Below the pieces are notes generated by a model. That model saw only the letters and a program-made list of their open reading frames with translations, was not told the DNA's origin and searched no databases. Position numbers and translations under genes: made by a program. A stretch of DNA of 37,484 bases from an uncultured bacterium (GTDB lineage Bacteria > Patescibacteriota > Minisyncoccia > Phycocordibacterales > UBA9973), in NCBI GenBank assembly GCA_903888625.1, contig CAISUD010000003.1, positions 1 to 37,484 of the forward strand. Reading direction: 5' to 3'. Positions 7,650-33,286 of this stretch are shown piece by piece. The first letter of the stretch is position 1; every line of letters starts with the position of its first letter.

Positions 7650-8852
7650 TCAATTATACCACCTTTTTAGTTTTTGCAAAATTTCATTTAAGGATTTTAT
7701 TACATAATCAAGATCCGCTTTAGAGGTTTCCCTTCCTAAAGAAAAACGTAAAGATCCTTCTCCTTTTTTGCATATTTTATTATTACCAGAACATAAAGCT
7801 AAAATCACGTATGAACCAGCTTTATCTCCAGATTTACATGCACTTTTTTCTGAAACATAAATTCCTCGAGCTGAAAGTTCTAAAACAAGAAGGTCGCTTG
7901 GGATTTTAGGAATAGTAATATTCACATTGTTTGGTAACCTCTTTTTTAAATCACCATTTATCTTTATGTCAAAGAGACTCTTTGACAATTTTATAATGAA
8001 ATAATCACGGAGTTTGATTAATCTTTTAACTTCTTTTTCTTTTATTTTTTCAGTAATTTTTAGCGCTTCTGTTAAACCAACTACTCCAACAAGATTTTCT
8101 GTCCCTGCTCGTAAACCAAATTCTTGTGCCCCACCATGGATGATACTAATTATGGGAGTATTTCTTTTAACATACAAAATTCCAATTCCTTTTGGACCAT
8201 AAATTTTCCCAGCATTAAAAGACAATAAATCTATGCCTAATTTTTCAACTTTTATCGGTAAATAATTTATCGCTTGAACAGCGTCGGTATGAAAAATTAT
8301 TTTTGTTGAATTAATTTTATTATAATGTCGAATTTCTTTAGCAATTTCTTCTATCGGCTCTATAGTGCCAATTTCATTGTTCGCATACATTACTGAAACC
8401 AAAACGGTATTTGGCTTAAGTGCTTTTTTTATTTTCTTTGGATCAACAATTCCATTTTCTTCGACAGGAACATATGTTACTTCTATTTTCCTTCCGCCAA
8501 CTGGCAGATTTTCTAAATATCGACAAGTTTCAAGCACAGAGGAATGTTCAATATTTGTAGTTACAATATGCTGTATGTCAAAGAAACTCTTTGACAGCAC
8601 CCCCATAATCGCCAAATTATTTGCTTCAGTAGCCCCAGAAGTAAAAATTATTTCATCACTATGCGCACCTAAAATTCTAGCTATTATTGCTCTATTTTCC
8701 TCCAAAATTTTTTTACTATTTACCCCAAGGTCATGGATAGAACCAGGATTAGCAAAATTTTCCTTTAAAACCTTTTGTATTACTTGAAAAACTGTGGGAT
8801 CAATCGGAGTTGCTCCAGCATTATCTAAATATATTTTAATTGATTTTGACAT
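7650..8852 (-). CDS. Cysteine desulfurase, NifS/IscS family
   Basis: A 400-residue PLP enzyme that takes sulfur from cysteine for Fe-S clusters or tRNA thiolation. Diagnostic features are TSGATEANN (71-79), EH at 102-103, HTDAVQ (188-193) with the PLP-binding Asp190, the Schiff-base Lys216 in NAGKIYGPKG, RAGTEN (248-253), and catalytic Cys339 in SACKSG. The residue before the Schiff-base Lys is Gly where most relatives have His. Two copies of a 21-bp palindrome (7967-7987 and 8576-8596) lie in frame and encode nearly the same peptide, LSKS(L/F)FDI. TATACT (complement of 8859-8864) sits 6 nt before the ATG. No Fe-S scaffold gene is adjacent. Confidence 0.92.
   Translation of the reverse strand: MSKSIKIYLDNAGATPIDPTVFQVIQKVLKENFANPGSIHDLGVNSKKILEENRAIIARILGAHSDEIIFTSGATEANNLAIMGVLSKSFFDIQHIVTTNIEHSSVLETCRYLENLPVGGRKIEVTYVPVEENGIVDPKKIKKALKPNTVLVSVMYANNEIGTIEPIEEIAKEIRHYNKINSTKIIFHTDAVQAINYLPIKVEKLGIDLLSFNAGKIYGPKGIGILYVKRNTPIISIIHGGAQEFGLRAGTENLVGVVGLTEALKITEKIKEKEVKRLIKLRDYFIIKLSKSLFDIKINGDLKKRLPNNVNITIPKIPSDLLVLELSARGIYVSEKSACKSGDKAGSYVILALCSGNNKICKKGEGSLRFSLGRETSKADLDYVIKSLNEILQKLKRWYN
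7967..7987. repeat. 21-bp perfect palindrome inside the cysteine desulfurase gene (copy 1)
   Basis: tgtcaaagag / ctctttgaca with a single central base. A second copy lies 609 bp away in the same gene and the same reading frame. Confidence 0.8.
8576..8596. repeat. 21-bp palindrome inside the cysteine desulfurase gene (copy 2)
   Basis: tgtcaaagaa / ctctttgaca, one substitution from copy 1. It lies in the loop after EANNLAIMG. Confidence 0.75.
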
Positions 8853-26673: not shown

Positions 26674-27927
26674 TTAGCTAAAGTGGAAAACTTTATCGAC
26701 AATCTTGTAGGCTTCCCCGGCTCCCATTGTCACCAAGATGTCATCTTTTCCAAAAATTTGACCCCTCAAATACTCTTCGGCTAGTTCAAAATCTGGAAAA
26801 GCTATCGCTTTGTCATCATTTTCACAGATAGCCTCCGCCAACTTCTGACTTGAGACACTTTCATCTTTATCCTCACGGGCAAAATAGATTGGTAAAAGGA
26901 TAATTTTGTCGGCTCCATGGAAACATTTGGTAAAATCGTTAAATAGTGCCTTGGTCCTTGAATAAAGGTGTGGTTGAAAAAGAATAGTAATCTTCTTTTC
27001 CCCGATTGGGTAGAGCTCTCGAAGAGCCTCGATACTTGCCCGAACTTCGGTCGGATGGTGAGCATAATCGTCATAAATAATAGTGCCTGCCTCTGTTATT
27101 CCTCTTTTTTCAAGTCTACGCCAAGTACCTTCAAAGTTCATAAGTGATTTTTTGGTAATCTCTTCATCAATGCCTAAAATTTCAGCTATAGCCATAGCTA
27201 ATGCTGCATTTTGACGATTGTGTTCGCCTGGAATAGAAAGTTTTGGAACCTTGTCTAAATATTTTTTGTAATCCGAAACCTTAATCTCACTTTGCTCTAA
27301 AAATTTATCAAAAGCACTTTTTATCTCGGCTAAGTCTTTGTAATAATCTAAGTGATCTGCCTCAATATTTGTAATGCCTCCGATGTATGGATGGAGGTGT
27401 AACATGTGCCGATTGTATTCATCCGCTTCGACGACCAAGTATTCACTATTGCCCTTTCTAAAATTAGAACCAAACTTTTTGACAAATGATCCGACGATGA
27501 CGGTGGGGTCGAGTCCAGCATCTATTAAAATATCCGCTACCATGGCTGTCGTCGTCGTCTTGCCGTGGGTACCTGAAATAGCAATCGTCTTGTAACCTTC
27601 GGCAAAGACTCCAAGGGCTTCCGCATAACTTAGTACTGGTTTGCCAGTAGCTTTAGCACTTTCTAAAATTTCTGGACCTCTATTTAGCCAAGCATCAGAA
27701 TAAACATACGCGTCCGCCGTAGCCTCGGCGAAGGCAGGCAAATCTGCCTTCATAAAAACTTCAATTCCTGCCTCTCGAAGTGAATCCAATGTTTTCCCTT
27801 CATCATCATTCACCCCAGAAACTTCCATCCCGCGACTCTTGGCCAATTTCGCCAAAGCCGAAATCCCAATCCCCCCGATTCCGATGAAGTATACCTTTTT
27901 AATTTTTGATAAATCTATGTTTTGCAT
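26674..27927 (-). CDS. murC: UDP-N-acetylmuramate--L-alanine ligase
   Basis: A 417-residue ATP-dependent ligase adding L-Ala to UDP-MurNAc, the first peptide step of wall precursor synthesis. It has the N-terminal nucleotide-sugar-binding motif FIGIGGIGISALA (14-26), the ATP loop SGTHGKTTT (118-126), EADEYNRHML, the family signature TNIEADHLDYY, and YDDYAHHPTEV. Residues 62-73 (DLPAFAEATADA) are a translated palindromic repeat inserted between two strands of domain 1. It overlaps the upstream phosphatase-like gene by 13 bp and ends the mur operon. Confidence 0.96.
   Translation of the reverse strand: MQNIDLSKIKKVYFIGIGGIGISALAKLAKSRGMEVSGVNDDEGKTLDSLREAGIEVFMKADLPAFAEATADAYVYSDAWLNRGPEILESAKATGKPVLSYAEALGVFAEGYKTIAISGTHGKTTTTAMVADILIDAGLDPTVIVGSFVKKFGSNFRKGNSEYLVVEADEYNRHMLHLHPYIGGITNIEADHLDYYKDLAEIKSAFDKFLEQSEIKVSDYKKYLDKVPKLSIPGEHNRQNAALAMAIAEILGIDEEITKKSLMNFEGTWRRLEKRGITEAGTIIYDDYAHHPTEVRASIEALRELYPIGEKKITILFQPHLYSRTKALFNDFTKCFHGADKIILLPIYFAREDKDESVSSQKLAEAICENDDKAIAFPDFELAEEYLRGQIFGKDDILVTMGAGEAYKIVDKVFHFS
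27713..27750. repeat. Palindromic repeat within murC
   Basis: Two adjoining hairpins: cgccg/cggcg (27715-27719/27726-27730) and aaggcag/ctgcctt (27731-27737/27744-27750). Read in frame as an FAEATADA-type peptide. GC content is higher than the surrounding gene. Confidence 0.7.
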
Positions 27928-28343
27928 GAGTTTATTAATTCTAACACTTTTTCTTTTATACTTTCAATTACATCTTTTGCTATTTTACTACCAAAATAAT
28001 CTGGGTTAATTATTTCCCAGTATTCGTATTTATAATTATTCAACCATAATGGAATATATTCCTTATCGGCCATTACCACTATTTTGTCTACACTCTTTAA
28101 ATATTCTTCTTTTAACTCATCACAACGTTCATTTGAAATATCAATTCCTTGTTTCATTAACTCATTAATAGTTACGTTCATTCCCTTTACAGAAGAAATC
28201 AATATCCCTTGTCTACCCTTAGCCTCTACTCGTGTTCCATAACTATATGCAATCGAACCATCTTTTGCTAATTTGTTATATATGGCTTTAGCTATTTGGC
28301 TTCTTAAAATATTCCCATTGCAAATAAAAACAACTTTTTTCAT
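27915..28343 (-). CDS. Low-molecular-weight phosphotyrosine phosphatase-like protein
   Basis: A 142-residue protein starting KKVVFICNGNILRSQIAKAIY. The phosphate-binding loop C-x5-R is present (Cys8, Arg14, Ser15), with Leu replacing the usual second Cys. A general-acid Asp is likely in NPDYFG near residue 118. Members dephosphorylate phosphotyrosine proteins, or reduce arsenate in a related branch. It overlaps the HAD gene by 4 bp and murC by 13 bp, so it is translated with them. A role in envelope regulation is possible, but the substrate is unknown. Confidence 0.8.
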   Translation of the reverse strand: MKKVVFICNGNILRSQIAKAIYNKLAKDGSIAYSYGTRVEAKGRQGILISSVKGMNVTINELMKQGIDISNERCDELKEEYLKSVDKIVVMADKEYIPLWLNNYKYEYWEIINPDYFGSKIAKDVIESIKEKVLELINSCKT

Positions 28344-28945
28344 AAATTTATTTCTAACTTTTTTAATTCTTCCTTCGATTGTTCGTTATTTATATATAAT
28401 ATTGGAATATACCCTATCTTGTCAGCACCTACTAGTGATGATTTAGAATCATCTATAAAAACTAATTCATTCATATCGACTCCGAGTTTTTTTACTAAAA
28501 TTTCAAAAATTTCAGGTTGTGGCTTTTGACATCCAACTTCAGAAGAATTGATTAAAACATCAAAATATTTTATCGTACCTTCATCTATCATTTGTTGTCG
28601 CAACTTAATATAATTATTACTTAATAAACCAATTTTATATCCTTTGCTTTTTAATTGTTTAATTATCTGAATTAGTTCCAAATTAATTTCCCTTGTTTCC
28701 ATATTTTCCTTCATCATCTCATGAATAGAAGATATCTGAATATCAGAAGCATTAAATTTTCTTGCAACAAGTTCGTAAACTTCTTCATAGCTATTTTTAC
28801 CAGTATTACATAAATAATTTAATGACATGTATTCTTTTAACCAATCTTGCAAAGAAACCCCTAAAAAATCAGAAATTTTTTTCATTAAATCTCTGTCTGT
28901 TATTTCGATAACTCCTCCATAGTCAAACGCAATTGCTTTTATCAT
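28340..28945 (-). CDS. HAD-superfamily hydrolase
   Basis: A 201-residue haloacid-dehalogenase-like protein of subfamily IA. Motif I is AFDYGGV with nucleophile Asp8; the usual Asp two residues later is Gly, as in YihX/epoxide-hydrolase-N-like members, so phosphatase activity is uncertain. Motif II is LLSNN, motif III CQKPQPEIF with the conserved Lys, motif IV FIDDSKSSLVGADKIGY. A helical cap lies at about 15-90. It sits between murD and the phosphatase-like gene with a 3-bp gap and a 4-bp overlap. Confidence 0.85.
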   Translation of the reverse strand: MIKAIAFDYGGVIEITDRDLMKKISDFLGVSLQDWLKEYMSLNYLCNTGKNSYEEVYELVARKFNASDIQISSIHEMMKENMETREINLELIQIIKQLKSKGYKIGLLSNNYIKLRQQMIDEGTIKYFDVLINSSEVGCQKPQPEIFEILVKKLGVDMNELVFIDDSKSSLVGADKIGYIPILYINNEQSKEELKKLEINL

Positions 28946-28948
28946 GTT

Positions 28949-30355
28949 TTATTTTAATCCTTTAATTATTTTCATAAACAAATCGTTACGTTCATACTCA
29001 TTATTAAACATTCCAAAAGAGGCAAAGGCAGGAGAAAAGAGGATAATATCTCCGCGTACGGCAAGACCTAACGCATTTTTTACAATTTCTTTTAAATCCT
29101 TGCCTATCTTGTTGGTAACTTTCAATTTATAATTTTTAATTAAATAATCTGTCCCAGTCCCTGGAATCAAAGAAACTGCTTTACAATTTTTATTTACTTC
29201 TTTCACAAAATTAGTTAAATCAAGCTTTTTGTCTGCTCCACCACAAATCAACACTAAATTATTTCTTTTCAACAGGCCTTGCCTGTTTATAACAGGCAAG
29301 GCCTGTTTATTTAAGGCTTTAATTCCAGCAATAGTTGCCTCTGGTGTGGTAGCATTATTATCATTATAAATTTTTATTCCTTTATAATTTCGTAAATATT
29401 GCAAGCGTCCCTCCACTCCGCCAAATCCACCTACTGCCTTTTTAATTTTCTCTATGGGTATTTTAAATTGTTTTGCCACTTCAACTGCATAAGCCAAATT
29501 TTGTCTTTGGTGTTCTCCCGGAACGACAAACTTAAAATCAGCCACACTCTTTTTATCAGGTAAAATAATCTTACCATTAAGAACCTCACCCTTACCCTCT
29601 CCTTTTAAAGTAGAGGGAGAATTTTGAATTAATTTTTTTACATCTTTACTAGTAATCAAAACATCTCCAGCTTTTTGGTTTTTGAAAATCAGAGCTTTGT
29701 CATTAAAATAATCTTCCATACTATTTTTATAGTAATTCATATGGTCCGGCATCAAATTTGTAAAAACAGAAATATGCGGTGAAATTTTTGCTTCACCAAA
29801 CCCTTGTAATTGCCAAGAATCTAACTCACAAACTAAAATATCTCCAGCTTTTACTTTTTTCAAAAGTGGTAAAGTGGCTACTCCTCGAATATTTCCACCA
29901 AGATAAACTTTCTTTTTTAAAAATTTTTCATTTGCTTTCAAGATTTCGTAAATCAGCATTGTCGTCATCGATTTTCCACGCGTACCTGTAACTCCAACAA
30001 CTATTGTTTTTGGTGCAGATTTAATAAAAAGAGATACATCCATTTCAATATTAGCTCCTGTTTTTTGGGCTTCTTCTATATAAATAGAATCTAATGGGAC
30101 TCCAGCCATTTTCATAATAATATCCCTATTACGAAAATCTTCTAATTTGTGTTTACCAATTGTAAATTTAATATTTTTAAATTTAGCGAGGGCATCCAAT
30201 GAACTTGCCAATTGTTCTTTTGATTTCAGATCAGTCACAATTAAATCTGCCCCACATTCTGCTAAAAATTTTGTATAACCCAACCCCCGCCCCAAAATCC
30301 CCAAGCCCATTACTGTAATTTTCTTCCCCTTAAATTGTTGTTTATAATTTTGCAT
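28949..30355 (-). CDS. murD: UDP-N-acetylmuramoylalanine--D-glutamate ligase
   Basis: A 468-residue Mur ligase adding D-Glu to the growing stem peptide. Domain 1 has ITVMGLGILGRGLGYTKFLAECGAD, the ATP loop reads GVTGTRGKSMTT, LMPDHMNYYKN marks the central domain, and YNDNNATTPEAT plus LICGGADKKLDL mark the C-terminal domain. It carries two in-frame palindromic repeats: 29582-29617 (NSPSTLKGEGKGEV) and 29271-29307 (NKQALPVINRQGLL). The ATG at 30355 is chosen because gaggtgat lies about 5 nt upstream; the longer form from 30382 would overlap the previous gene. Confidence 0.95.
   Translation of the reverse strand: MQNYKQQFKGKKITVMGLGILGRGLGYTKFLAECGADLIVTDLKSKEQLASSLDALAKFKNIKFTIGKHKLEDFRNRDIIMKMAGVPLDSIYIEEAQKTGANIEMDVSLFIKSAPKTIVVGVTGTRGKSMTTMLIYEILKANEKFLKKKVYLGGNIRGVATLPLLKKVKAGDILVCELDSWQLQGFGEAKISPHISVFTNLMPDHMNYYKNSMEDYFNDKALIFKNQKAGDVLITSKDVKKLIQNSPSTLKGEGKGEVLNGKIILPDKKSVADFKFVVPGEHQRQNLAYAVEVAKQFKIPIEKIKKAVGGFGGVEGRLQYLRNYKGIKIYNDNNATTPEATIAGIKALNKQALPVINRQGLLKRNNLVLICGGADKKLDLTNFVKEVNKNCKAVSLIPGTGTDYLIKNYKLKVTNKIGKDLKEIVKNALGLAVRGDIILFSPAFASFGMFNNEYERNDLFMKIIKGLK
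29271..29307. repeat. 37-bp perfect palindrome within murD
   Basis: 17-bp arms (aacaggccttgcctgtt and complement) with a 3-nt loop. Despite the strong hairpin the reading frame is open through it. Confidence 0.9.
29582..29617. repeat. Palindromic repeat family 2, copy 4, within murD
   Basis: aacctcacccttaccctctc then cttttaaagtagaggg; near-identical to the intergenic copy at 12624-12660, here translated in frame. Confidence 0.75.
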
Positions 30356-30357
30356 AT

Positions 30358-32028
30358 TTATATCACCTCTTGCTGATAACATTTTTCACAATACATTATC
30401 GGAGCAACTTCTTTGGTTAAATTTGTATTTGTCTCTTCCCCGCAATTGTCGCATTTTCGAATGAAAAATTTAAAAGGCCCCCGGCGAATTACTCTATCCT
30501 TATGTCGACAAAAGAAACATTTTCGTGGAATTGGTAAAACCATTTTACGGTAAAACAACAATTCTTGCTCTGTTATTTTATAATTTCTTTCACAATCAAT
30601 ACAACGTAAAATTTCATGAGTTATTGAATCTGTAATATCTTTGATATGATCTGGAATTTGATTTGGTAAAATAGTTTCTTTTCTAGTGGTCATTTGAATG
30701 TCATCTTCCCATCTAAAGCCTTGTGCCAAAGCTTGCTCTTTAGATAAAGGCATATTGTCTTGTGCAATAGTTTCATTATAAGCAAAAGGAGCAATCTCTG
30801 GTGGCATCATAAGTCCATGAATTCCCAAATCTGTAAGTTCTTTCACAATATGTTCTTTTATTTCTTCGTATTCCTGTTTACTATATTCCCTATTAAAAAT
30901 TGAATTTTTTGCATGCCGAACCGCATCACAACCAATACAATCTTGACAATTGGCAATATAAAAACTATATAAAATATCTCTAGAATGCTCAGCCCAATAA
31001 GAACCTATTACATTATTACAATAGCCAGTAGCTACAACTTCGAGTAATAATTCTGAATTAGTACCGTAGCCAATCGTGCCCAAAGAATCCTTAGTCATTT
31101 TAGAAGAAAATATGTATCTAGAATTTTCACCTTTAGCTACCTCAAAAGAATCTTTTACATTCCTACATTCATTAAGATAATCACCAGTAGAATTTACTGT
31201 TTTTAAATTATTATTTGCCCTGCGTGGTAACGTTTTACAAAATTCTTGAAATTGCTTTTTAAATTCTTCAGATTTTTTATAACTTCCTTTTATCTCATTA
31301 ATTCTTTTAGAATATTCATCTGTACTTAATTGTTCATTAAAAAAACAATTGCTTTTATTTCTTAGATTCATACAACCAAAACAATTTGTTAGCCCGCTAC
31401 CATTTAAAATAAATTGTGAATCAACACATCCTGAAACATTTTGCCCCCAAAAAACATTCGCCGATTCTTGAACATTTATGCATTCATAACAACGTTCAAA
31501 ACCAACTCCAAAATAAATGTCAGAAGCATCTAGCCCTTTTTTTACTCCTCTTGAATACATTACTTCCTCAGCTGGACTTGTATTAAAAACAAGATAACAA
31601 TTCTTACAGCCACTCGCCATATTGGTATATTCACTATTAATATTTACCCCATCACCAAAAGACAACCCTAAATTTATTTTCGGAACCTTAATTAAAAAAT
31701 TATTCATTTGTTCAAAAAATGGTTTTGATTTATCATAATCTTGAGCATAATCCTTCGGGTCCCACTTATCAGAATAAAAACAATCATAGCAATAAATAGT
31801 GTAAGGCAATTTTGGATTATACATTGTGATAATCCCTTTTCCACACAAATCACATTTTCTTCCAGAATATAAAGACATCTCATTTCGCCATAATGCTCGC
31901 ATTTTAAAACGACAATCTGGACAGATATTTGGTGCTGGGACCTTCATTTTTTCGTAAAAAGAAAAATCGTCTTGGTCTAAATCAAAATCCTGTTTACACC
32001 TATTACATTGTCGTGTTTCTGTTTCCAT
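30358..32028 (-). CDS. Duplicated zinc-ribbon protein with Cys-rich repeat core
   Basis: A 556-residue protein with homologous Cys4-Cys4 modules at both ends. N-terminal cysteines: 8, 11, 36, 39, 59, 62, 80, 83; C-terminal: 476, 479, 504, 507, 526, 529, 547, 550, with almost equal spacing, and both contain FY-x-KM-x(2)-P-x-P between the first two pairs. The core (about 100-400) is rich in Cys, Asn and Gly with short strand-like units (NCYLVFN, CYECINVQES, CVDSQFILNGSG), suggesting a beta-helix. I recall similar proteins in Parcubacteria, sometimes annotated CaiB/BaiF without good reason. Function is unknown. It lies 3 bp before murD and abuts murE, so it is tied to the mur operon. Confidence 0.7.
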   Translation of the reverse strand: METETRQCNRCKQDFDLDQDDFSFYEKMKVPAPNICPDCRFKMRALWRNEMSLYSGRKCDLCGKGIITMYNPKLPYTIYCYDCFYSDKWDPKDYAQDYDKSKPFFEQMNNFLIKVPKINLGLSFGDGVNINSEYTNMASGCKNCYLVFNTSPAEEVMYSRGVKKGLDASDIYFGVGFERCYECINVQESANVFWGQNVSGCVDSQFILNGSGLTNCFGCMNLRNKSNCFFNEQLSTDEYSKRINEIKGSYKKSEEFKKQFQEFCKTLPRRANNNLKTVNSTGDYLNECRNVKDSFEVAKGENSRYIFSSKMTKDSLGTIGYGTNSELLLEVVATGYCNNVIGSYWAEHSRDILYSFYIANCQDCIGCDAVRHAKNSIFNREYSKQEYEEIKEHIVKELTDLGIHGLMMPPEIAPFAYNETIAQDNMPLSKEQALAQGFRWEDDIQMTTRKETILPNQIPDHIKDITDSITHEILRCIDCERNYKITEQELLFYRKMVLPIPRKCFFCRHKDRVIRRGPFKFFIRKCDNCGEETNTNLTKEVAPIMYCEKCYQQEVI

Positions 32029-32029
32029 T

Positions 32030-33286
32030 TTATTTCCCGCCTGCATCAGCTATGCTGGAAGCATTGCGGGCAGGTAAATATTTTTTTAATTCTTCCATAT
32101 CATTAAATGGATATTTAACACCTTTTATTTCTTGATATTGTTCATGGCCTTTACCAGCAAGTAGTATGATATCCCCTGACTTTGCCAACTCACACGCTTT
32201 CTTTATCGCTTCATCTCTTTTTTCAATAAAGTAAATTTCTTTTCGCAAGGACTGTCCTTGCGAAATTGGCAGGCCTTTTTTCATATCAGAAAATATATTT
32301 TGAATATCTTCACTGCGAGAATTGTCCGATGTGGCTATCGTAATATCACTATTATCATATACTATTTTAGCCATCAATGGTCTTTTTGACGTATCCCTGT
32401 CTCCCCCACAACCAAAAAGTGTGATTATTTTACTTTTCTGCGAAAGCCTTGCTTCCGCAGAAATATTTTGAATAGTTTTCAAAACATTCAAGAGTGCATC
32501 CGGCGTATGGGCAAAATCAACTATTCCAGTTATACCAGACTCACTTTTAAAGTGATTAAATCTTCCAGCTACTGGTTCTAAATTTTTTATAATTTCTTTA
32601 ACCTTTATTTTATCAAGACCAAGCAGAACAGTGGTTGCATAAACTACTAAGACATTATAAGCATTAAATTCCCCAAGTAATTTTGTTTTAATTTTCTCAT
32701 TAAAATTTGCAACATTTTTAAAACCATAAGTATATTTTTTGGCCTTAATTCCATCCAACATTTTCTCTCCATATGGGTCATCAATATTGGATAAGGCAAA
32801 AGCATTTTTGGGAAGAAAATTAAAAAACTTCTTTTTTGCTAAAAAATATTTCTCCATACTTTTGTGATAGTCTAAATGATCTTGAGTAAGATTGGTAAAA
32901 ATTCCTCCAGTGAATTTGATACCAGCCACTCGACGTTGATCGGCCGCATGCGAAGAAACTTCCATAAAAACATATATACAACCCTCTTTTACCATTTGAT
33001 CAAAAAGTTTTGTTAGAGAAATAGAATCTGGTGTAGTACCGGGACTTTTTTCATCATGTGGAATGACCTTTTCACCAATTATATTTTCTACCGTGCTAAT
33101 AAGTCCAACCTTATAGCCTAGAGCAGTTGTGGTTTTGTACAAAAGCGTAGCCACTGTAGTTTTACCGTTTGTCCCAGTAATACCAATAATCTTTAGCTTT
33201 TTTGCCGGAAAACCATAGCGATAATTCACCGCTTTAGACTTTATTTTCCATTTGAGAGTTCTCCACTTTTTAGTTACATTCACCAT
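32030..33286 (-). CDS. murE: UDP-MurNAc-tripeptide synthetase, MurE type lacking the N-terminal domain
   Basis: A 418-residue Mur ligase adding the third residue of the stem peptide. It has GITGTNGKTT (35-44), MEVSSHAADQRRV (108-120), TNLTQDHLDYH (131-141), and LFGCGGDRDTSKRPLM. The specificity motif is DNSR (321-324), near the DNPR of meso-diaminopimelate-adding enzymes; the kept Arg argues for a diaminopimelate-type substrate. The usual N-terminal UDP-binding domain is almost absent. Three palindromic repeats are translated in frame (275-286, 340-349 and the C-terminal PARNASSIADAGGK). TTGATA-17-TATCTT with the -10 6 nt before the ATG gives a leaderless promoter inside the upstream gene's 3' end. 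Confidence 0.93.
   Translation of the reverse strand: MVNVTKKWRTLKWKIKSKAVNYRYGFPAKKLKIIGITGTNGKTTVATLLYKTTTALGYKVGLISTVENIIGEKVIPHDEKSPGTTPDSISLTKLFDQMVKEGCIYVFMEVSSHAADQRRVAGIKFTGGIFTNLTQDHLDYHKSMEKYFLAKKKFFNFLPKNAFALSNIDDPYGEKMLDGIKAKKYTYGFKNVANFNEKIKTKLLGEFNAYNVLVVYATTVLLGLDKIKVKEIIKNLEPVAGRFNHFKSESGITGIVDFAHTPDALLNVLKTIQNISAEARLSQKSKIITLFGCGGDRDTSKRPLMAKIVYDNSDITIATSDNSRSEDIQNIFSDMKKGLPISQGQSLRKEIYFIEKRDEAIKKACELAKSGDIILLAGKGHEQYQEIKGVKYPFNDMEELKKYLPARNASSIADAGGK
32036..32073. repeat. Palindromic repeat forming the MurE C-terminus
   Basis: Nested inverted repeats cccgc/gcggg (32036-32040/32066-32070) and cagc/gctg around tat. It encodes the last 14 residues of MurE and its tail gives the purine-rich bases just before the next start codon. 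Confidence 0.65.
32241..32265. repeat. 25-bp perfect palindrome within murE
   Basis: 11-bp arms tttcgcaagga and complement, loop ctg; read in frame as ISQGQSLRK. Confidence 0.8.
32435..32463. repeat. Palindromic repeat within murE, sharing the S1 terminator core
   Basis: 12-bp arms tttctgcgaaag/cttccgcagaaa with one mismatch, loop ccttg. The core matches the terminator at 24043-24077. Confidence 0.7.

Follow-up and report, generated by a model that had tools for sequence, protein, structure and literature searches.

In-frame palindromic repeats in murC, murD and murE of a Patescibacteria genome and their probable relation to RAYT-associated elements

The murC, murD and murE genes on contig CAISUD010000003.1 of an uncultured patescibacterium (assembly GCA_903888625.1) contain palindromic segments within their coding sequences, which raises the question of how such repeats enter essential wall-synthesis enzymes and what moves them. 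We analyzed the whole contig of 37,484 nucleotides (the window), which is contig 3 of a 0.90-Mb genome in 64 contigs whose nearest named relatives by MurD are Candidatus Nomurabacteria. Most of the segments are in-frame, lineage-specific insertions of dispersed palindromic repeats. They are probably non-autonomous palindromes, single or in head-to-head dimers, resembling repetitive extragenic palindromes (REPs) and belonging to a Nomurabacteria system of REPs and REP-associated tyrosine transposases (RAYTs), small HuH (Y1) enzymes.

Palindromic segments in the mur genes

The original prediction listed six palindromes, all in frame, in the three host genes. These genes and segments are as follows.

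26674–27927, minus strand: murC, open reading frame (ORF)
about 27712–27738, minus strand: segment in murC, peptide PAFAEATAD; weak hairpin, net gain about 2 amino acids (aa)
28949–30382, minus strand: murD; homologues begin at about residue 10 of the ORF
29271–29307, minus strand: in murD, inverted dimer of the palindrome AACAGGCCTTGCCTGTT, similar to a REP doublet forming hairpins (REPIN); in frame, peptide KQALPVINRQGLLK
29595–29617, minus strand: in murD, imperfect palindrome of the dispersed family CCCTCTCC...GGAGAGGG; peptide SPSTLKGEGKGEV, hairpin score 8
32030–33286, minus strand: murE, ORF
32036–32074, minus strand: 39-bp imperfect palindromic repeat in murE; below the hairpin threshold
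32241–32265, minus strand: in murE, palindrome TTTCGCAAGGACTGTCCTTGCGAAA; in frame, peptide ISQGQSLRK, net gain about 4 aa
32435–32463, minus strand: in murE, palindrome TTTCTGCGAAAGCCTTGCTTCCGCAGAAA; in frame, peptide SAEARLSQK, net gain about 8 aa

All six segments lie at these positions within open murC, murD and murE frames, and the repeat at 32036–32074 encodes the C-terminus of MurE, PARNASSIADAGGK, as had been proposed. They represent several sequence families rather than one kind, and their hairpin strength is uneven. The 37-bp palindrome predicted in murD is confirmed: it is a head-to-head dimer of a 17-bp palindrome, with 17-nt arms that are 100% complementary around a 3-nt spacer. 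The murE segment at 32241–32265 has perfect 12-nt arms and a 1-nt loop, and that at 32435–32463 is a near-perfect 29-bp palindrome with a hairpin score of 10; when the entire window (37 kb) was Markov-shuffled, each of two runs gave only one hairpin of score at least 11. The murC segment and the C-terminal murE repeat do not reach the hairpin threshold, so that the description of all six as palindromes stands for position and frame, and for hairpin strength in part.

Most of these families are dispersed. Counts in the genome refer to selected stretches that total 273 kb, or about 30% of the genome, a non-random sample skewed to contigs with RAYT or repeat matches. In this sample the family of the murD segment at 29595 occurs at about nine places. 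The family of murE 32435 recurs in the stretches L026, L022 (as an in-frame dimer) and L020, as well as between genes of the window. Copies of the C-terminal murE repeat, about 85–97% identical, are found at different sites in several other Nomurabacteria, and the murC segment has a single weak second match in its own genome. The count of six proved incomplete, since palindrome-like segments are also present in another gene of the window and at a further site in murD.

7967–7987, minus strand: RAYT-type palindrome TGTCAAAGAGACTCTTTGACA, in frame in a class-V aminotransferase gene (Pfam PF00266); resembles palindromes beside the RAYT genes of L087 and L110
24042–24078, no strand: intergenic copy of the murE 32435 family, TAAAAAAGTGCGAAAGCCTTGCTTTCGCACTTTTTTA; A/T tails, terminator-like
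29054–29074, minus strand: palindrome-like 21-mer GCGTTAGGTCTTGCCGTACGC in murD; peptide ALGLAVR, length-neutral

The terminator-like form of the intergenic copy suggests that REP-type repeats may act as terminators.

Comparison with relatives

MurC, MurD and MurE were aligned with their counterparts from up to 20 genomes of the same genus. The inserted residues are absent from nearly all aligned relatives, the exceptions being the 29595 insertion, shared only with the relative G026, and the murC segment, for which G022 has related sequence at the corresponding position. Net, MurD has gained about 10 aa or more at each of its two sites (29271 and 29595), and MurE about 13 aa at its C-terminus, where the repeat forms an extension that the relatives do not have. 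Thus four of the segments have no counterpart of equal length at the same sites in relatives without the palindrome, while the distinction is weak for murE 32241 and nearly vanishes for murC.

The same pattern is seen beyond the window. A survey of rare in-frame insertions of at least four residues in murC, murD and murE of 81 genomes yielded 115 cases, of which 19% have a hairpin score of at least 10; among control windows taken from these genes the share is 0.7%, which makes the excess 27-fold. Strong hairpins are a minority of the 115, and palindromes are therefore a major but not the sole source of insertions. In pairs of genes with and without an insertion, at 71–90% aa identity, the net gain is mostly near the length of the palindrome; murD of L227, for example, has gained 30 nt with a 30-bp palindrome.

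AlphaFold models of MurD (predicted local distance difference test, pLDDT, 88.5) and MurE (83.1) show the inserts in the C-terminal tail or in stretches that link secondary-structure elements, where confidence is locally low. In MurD, the 29271 insert falls in a loop region between H347–358 and E376–381 (block pLDDT 56 in the AlphaFold2 model), and pLDDT drops below 50 at residues 259–264 in the 29595 insert. In MurE, the 32241 insert is in a loop with pLDDT below 50 at 343–346, the 32435 insert lies between H262–280 and E287–292, and the C-terminal insert has pLDDT below 50 at 408–418. The proposed location in surface loops is thus supported for MurD and MurE as predicted loops or tail, surface exposure being read off loop position and pLDDT.

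RAYT genes and their palindromes

The genome has three genes with a Y1_Tnp domain, on its contigs C34, C39 and C23, and every one of them lies between copies of a palindrome of its own.

C34 RAYT, flanking palindrome: AATAAACAGGCCTTGCCTGTTTATT
C39 RAYT, flanking palindrome: AAAACGACTAGGTCTTGCCTAGTCGTTTT
C23 RAYT, flanking palindrome: ACTGAGAGGCCTTGCCTCTCAGT; an extra copy lies in frame inside the RAYT gene (L011:1475-1499, G000:C23)

Two of the mur segments are tied directly to such flanks. The unit of the murD dimer is identical over 22 bp to the palindrome on both sides of the C34 RAYT (G000:C34), and in two sister species, G005 (L107) and G010 (L108), RAYT genes have next to them a palindrome that matches the murE 32241 palindrome in 23 of 23 positions. 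The RAYT proteins carry the Y1_Tnp (PF01797) domain with the HuH motif and motifs of the MPNHFH and YIHLNP types.

A search of the genus gave 88 RAYT genes, 86 of which have full flanks and were used. Matching palindromes on both sides were found at 43 of the 86 and at none of a small control set, 24 other ORFs from these loci. The identity of RAYT proteins correlates with the similarity of the palindrome centres (Mantel r 0.44, p 0.0005; permuted values reached 0.14 at most), and members of one RAYT clade share the centre (e.g., AGGCAAGACCT and AGGACTACCCT) but differ in the outer stem. In a phylum-wide sample, Y1_Tnp genes are present in 67 of 145 genomes. Clear both-sided palindromes were seen at 2 of the 20 phylum-wide loci that were read, in a sample that ranked the strongest PF01797 matches first and so favours IS200-type genes over RAYTs; on this count the pattern is not established beyond the genus.

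Distribution in the genome and the mur hotspot

The genome sample contains 30 palindromes with RAYT-type centres, of several families, where shuffled sequence gives 2–3. Nine are in frame inside genes, 10 are intergenic and 11 extend across ORF edges, the ORFs being predicted by length alone. Chance may account for part of the weaker matches in coding sequence. Per base, coding sequence is depleted in these palindromes; still, about one third of the copies lie in genes. RAYT-type and other GC-rich hairpins occur in pheT, recR, ligA, murB, lepA, an oxidoreductase gene and an aminotransferase gene. Three different palindromes, all in frame, are found in ligA (L027:8037-10247). REPIN-like inverted dimers are present in frame in murD, ligA and pheT, and single palindromes are also common. 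An ORF on C23 with a 48-bp dimer was considered as ftsZ, which its Pfam assignment to pyridine nucleotide-disulphide oxidoreductases ruled out.

A comparison across loci of 80 relatives gives a density of about 10 palindromic insertions per 100 kb for the mur ligases and 0 in about 170 kb of seven neighbouring gene families, the only families available for it; the Mur cluster in this comparison mixes MurC and MurD. Since the neighbouring families hold no palindromic insertions, the mur ligases look like an insertion hotspot. The emphasis of the original prediction on essential wall enzymes of one cluster is borne out to this extent. Other essential genes (ligA, pheT, recR, lepA and murB) are also hit, including genes far from the mur cluster.

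Origin of the insertions

We propose that a RAYT whose gene is flanked by its cognate palindrome would act on this palindrome as a single-stranded hairpin and would paste copies of it elsewhere. Because the palindromes are short, some copies would keep the reading frame, and those in loops or tails of essential enzymes would survive as short added peptides, presumably tolerated without a new function. By analogy, the same RAYT/REP system may also account for the 29595, murE C-terminal and murC families. Several observations weigh against this proposal. A direct RAYT match is absent for four of the six segments, and the CCCTCTCC, PARNAS-type and murC families could not be assigned to a mover. 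A recognized matching palindrome pair is missing at one half of the RAYT genes, and the three RAYTs of this genome score 44, 40 and 26 bits against the NCBIfam REP transposase family NF047646, below its equivalog cut-off of 80 bits, though it is their best family match. No consensus for a GTAG-type foot tag was found in the 4-nt flanks of 72 listed GGYCTTGCC hairpins, the one family checked, in a list that includes native murD copies of the ALGLA 21-mer. The net gains at murE 32241 and in murC are below palindrome length, and the ORF-based search for insertions is blind to those that break the frame. Finally, transposition itself is inferred, no event having been observed.

Alternatively, the palindromes could be spread by an unrelated mechanism, as may apply in Rickettsia, with RAYT genes merely frequent landing neighbours. 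The families without a RAYT match (29595, murE C-terminal and murC) would agree with this, but both-sided cognate flanks at 43/86 RAYT genes versus 0/24 control ORFs, and the co-variation of RAYT relatedness with the palindrome centre, make it unlikely. A role for selection, with hairpins that control the transcription or the mRNA of the mur operon, or with peptides functional in MurC, MurD and MurE, would fit both the density of insertions in mur ligases (about 10 per 100 kb versus 0 in the seven neighbouring families) and the unusual constancy of the murD 21-mer by codon. We regard it as improbable: the inserts vary in sequence and site among species, most species are without them, the models place them in low-confidence loops, and tolerance of loops accounts for the hotspot equally well.

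Local formation of the palindromes by templated inverted duplication, through replication slippage or hairpin-primed synthesis and with no transposition, is quite improbable. It is suggested by the gain of about 12 nt at murE 32241, which equals one arm, and of about 6 nt in murC; however, duplication does not give sequences shared with distant loci, other species and RAYT flanks, and the dispersed copies count against it for most families. Strong hairpins within genes might also point to translational bypass or removal at the RNA level, such that the peptides are never made. This is very improbable, as the listed inserts are all stop-free and in frame, which removal does not need, with the caveat that the ORF search selects for these properties. 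Assembly artefact or contamination could be suspected in a draft genome of 64 contigs but is hardly credible, given like inserts in many independent assemblies.

Relation to known systems

The resemblance to Rickettsia palindromic elements (RPEs) noted in the original prediction holds for in-frame palindromic insertions in many genes, homologues without them and tolerated peptides; it is a resemblance of insertion pattern. The REP/RAYT system is the better match, because cognate palindromes flank RAYT genes. To our knowledge, no transposase is known for RPEs.

As in REP and REPIN systems with a RAYT (TnpA-REP; PMC2817692, PMC3116915, PMC8266576), the palindromes are short, occur singly or as inverted dimers, flank a cognate HuH Y1 transposase gene and co-vary with the transposase. 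In vitro, the E. coli TnpA-REP can both cut and join REP in single-stranded form (PMC8266576). The repeats studied here differ in having no GTAG-type foot tag in the family checked, a conserved motif at the hairpin centre (GGYCTTGCC, AGGACWGTCCT), apparently few copies per family, against the more than 100, mostly extragenic, typical of REPs, several families and RAYTs per genome, and about one third of sampled copies in frame inside genes. REPs of the GTAG/CGTC type also occur within ORFs, in uvrA, DNA ligase, tRNA synthetase and other genes, more than half in dimers or groups, but have the tag at one end of the palindrome (PMC3733652); the text of that paper contains neither of the terms TM7 and candidate division. 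In TnpA-REP subclasses 2.4 and 2.8 a REP lies inside the transposase gene (PMC6006769), and the C23 RAYT is alike in that trait. The TIRYT elements are RAYT-like genes flanked by terminal inverted repeats (PMC3733652), whereas the flanking units described here are themselves hairpins and are also found alone.

Thus REPs in genes (PMC3733652), REPINs (PMC3116915), REPs inside RAYT genes (PMC6006769) and in-frame RPEs are already known. New are the lineage, the motif conserved at the hairpin apex, with no GTAG foot in the family checked, the arrangement of many families in apparently low copy number and the mur-ligase hotspot. No paper joining RAYTs or REPINs with Patescibacteria was found in open-licence full text. 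Rickettsia has long provided examples of palindromic insertions in frame, with no mover identified; here, such insertions are tied to a concrete transposase–palindrome pairing, in a streamlined lineage with no such report in the searchable literature. The many natural pairs of filled and empty sites could serve to study the entry of new peptides into essential proteins, and differences in protein length among Patescibacteria can stem from mobile DNA.

A wider proposal, which we hold tentatively and consider somewhat more probably wrong than right, is that Patescibacteria carry a distinct class of REP/RAYT systems in which recognition depends on the apex of the hairpin and not on a GTAG foot. 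By in-frame insertion, such systems would continually add length to the essential proteins of streamlined genomes, with a hotspot in the mur ligases, and at least one copy, the murD ALGLA 21-mer, would now be part of the folded enzyme.

The murD 21-mer and other features of the locus

The 21-mer, GCGTTAGGTCTTGCCTCACGC, occurs at one murD site in 12 of 81 genes without a change in length. On the MurD tree its carriers do not group together (10 Fitch changes). They share codons at the 21-mer at 0.90, compared with 0.50 in the rest of murD, and no other five-codon window is so high; the carriers were chosen by DNA similarity to the 21-mer, which inflates the codon identity. The family also has a perfect palindromic form, GCGTTAGGTCTTGCCTAACGC, which is found dispersed through the genus; on one contig (G035:C72), copies at positions 172–192 and 870–890 bracket a RAYT match at 416–652. 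In the murD frame, the perfect palindrome would introduce the stop codon TAA, in place of which the carriers have TCA and the window has GTA.

MurE, of about 420 aa, aligns to solved MurE chains only from about their residue 90–100, and the N-terminal domain is apparently missing in the window and in many relatives. Between murD and murE, a 562-aa cysteine-rich ORF (30358–32046) has its first ATG inside the C-terminal repeat of murE.

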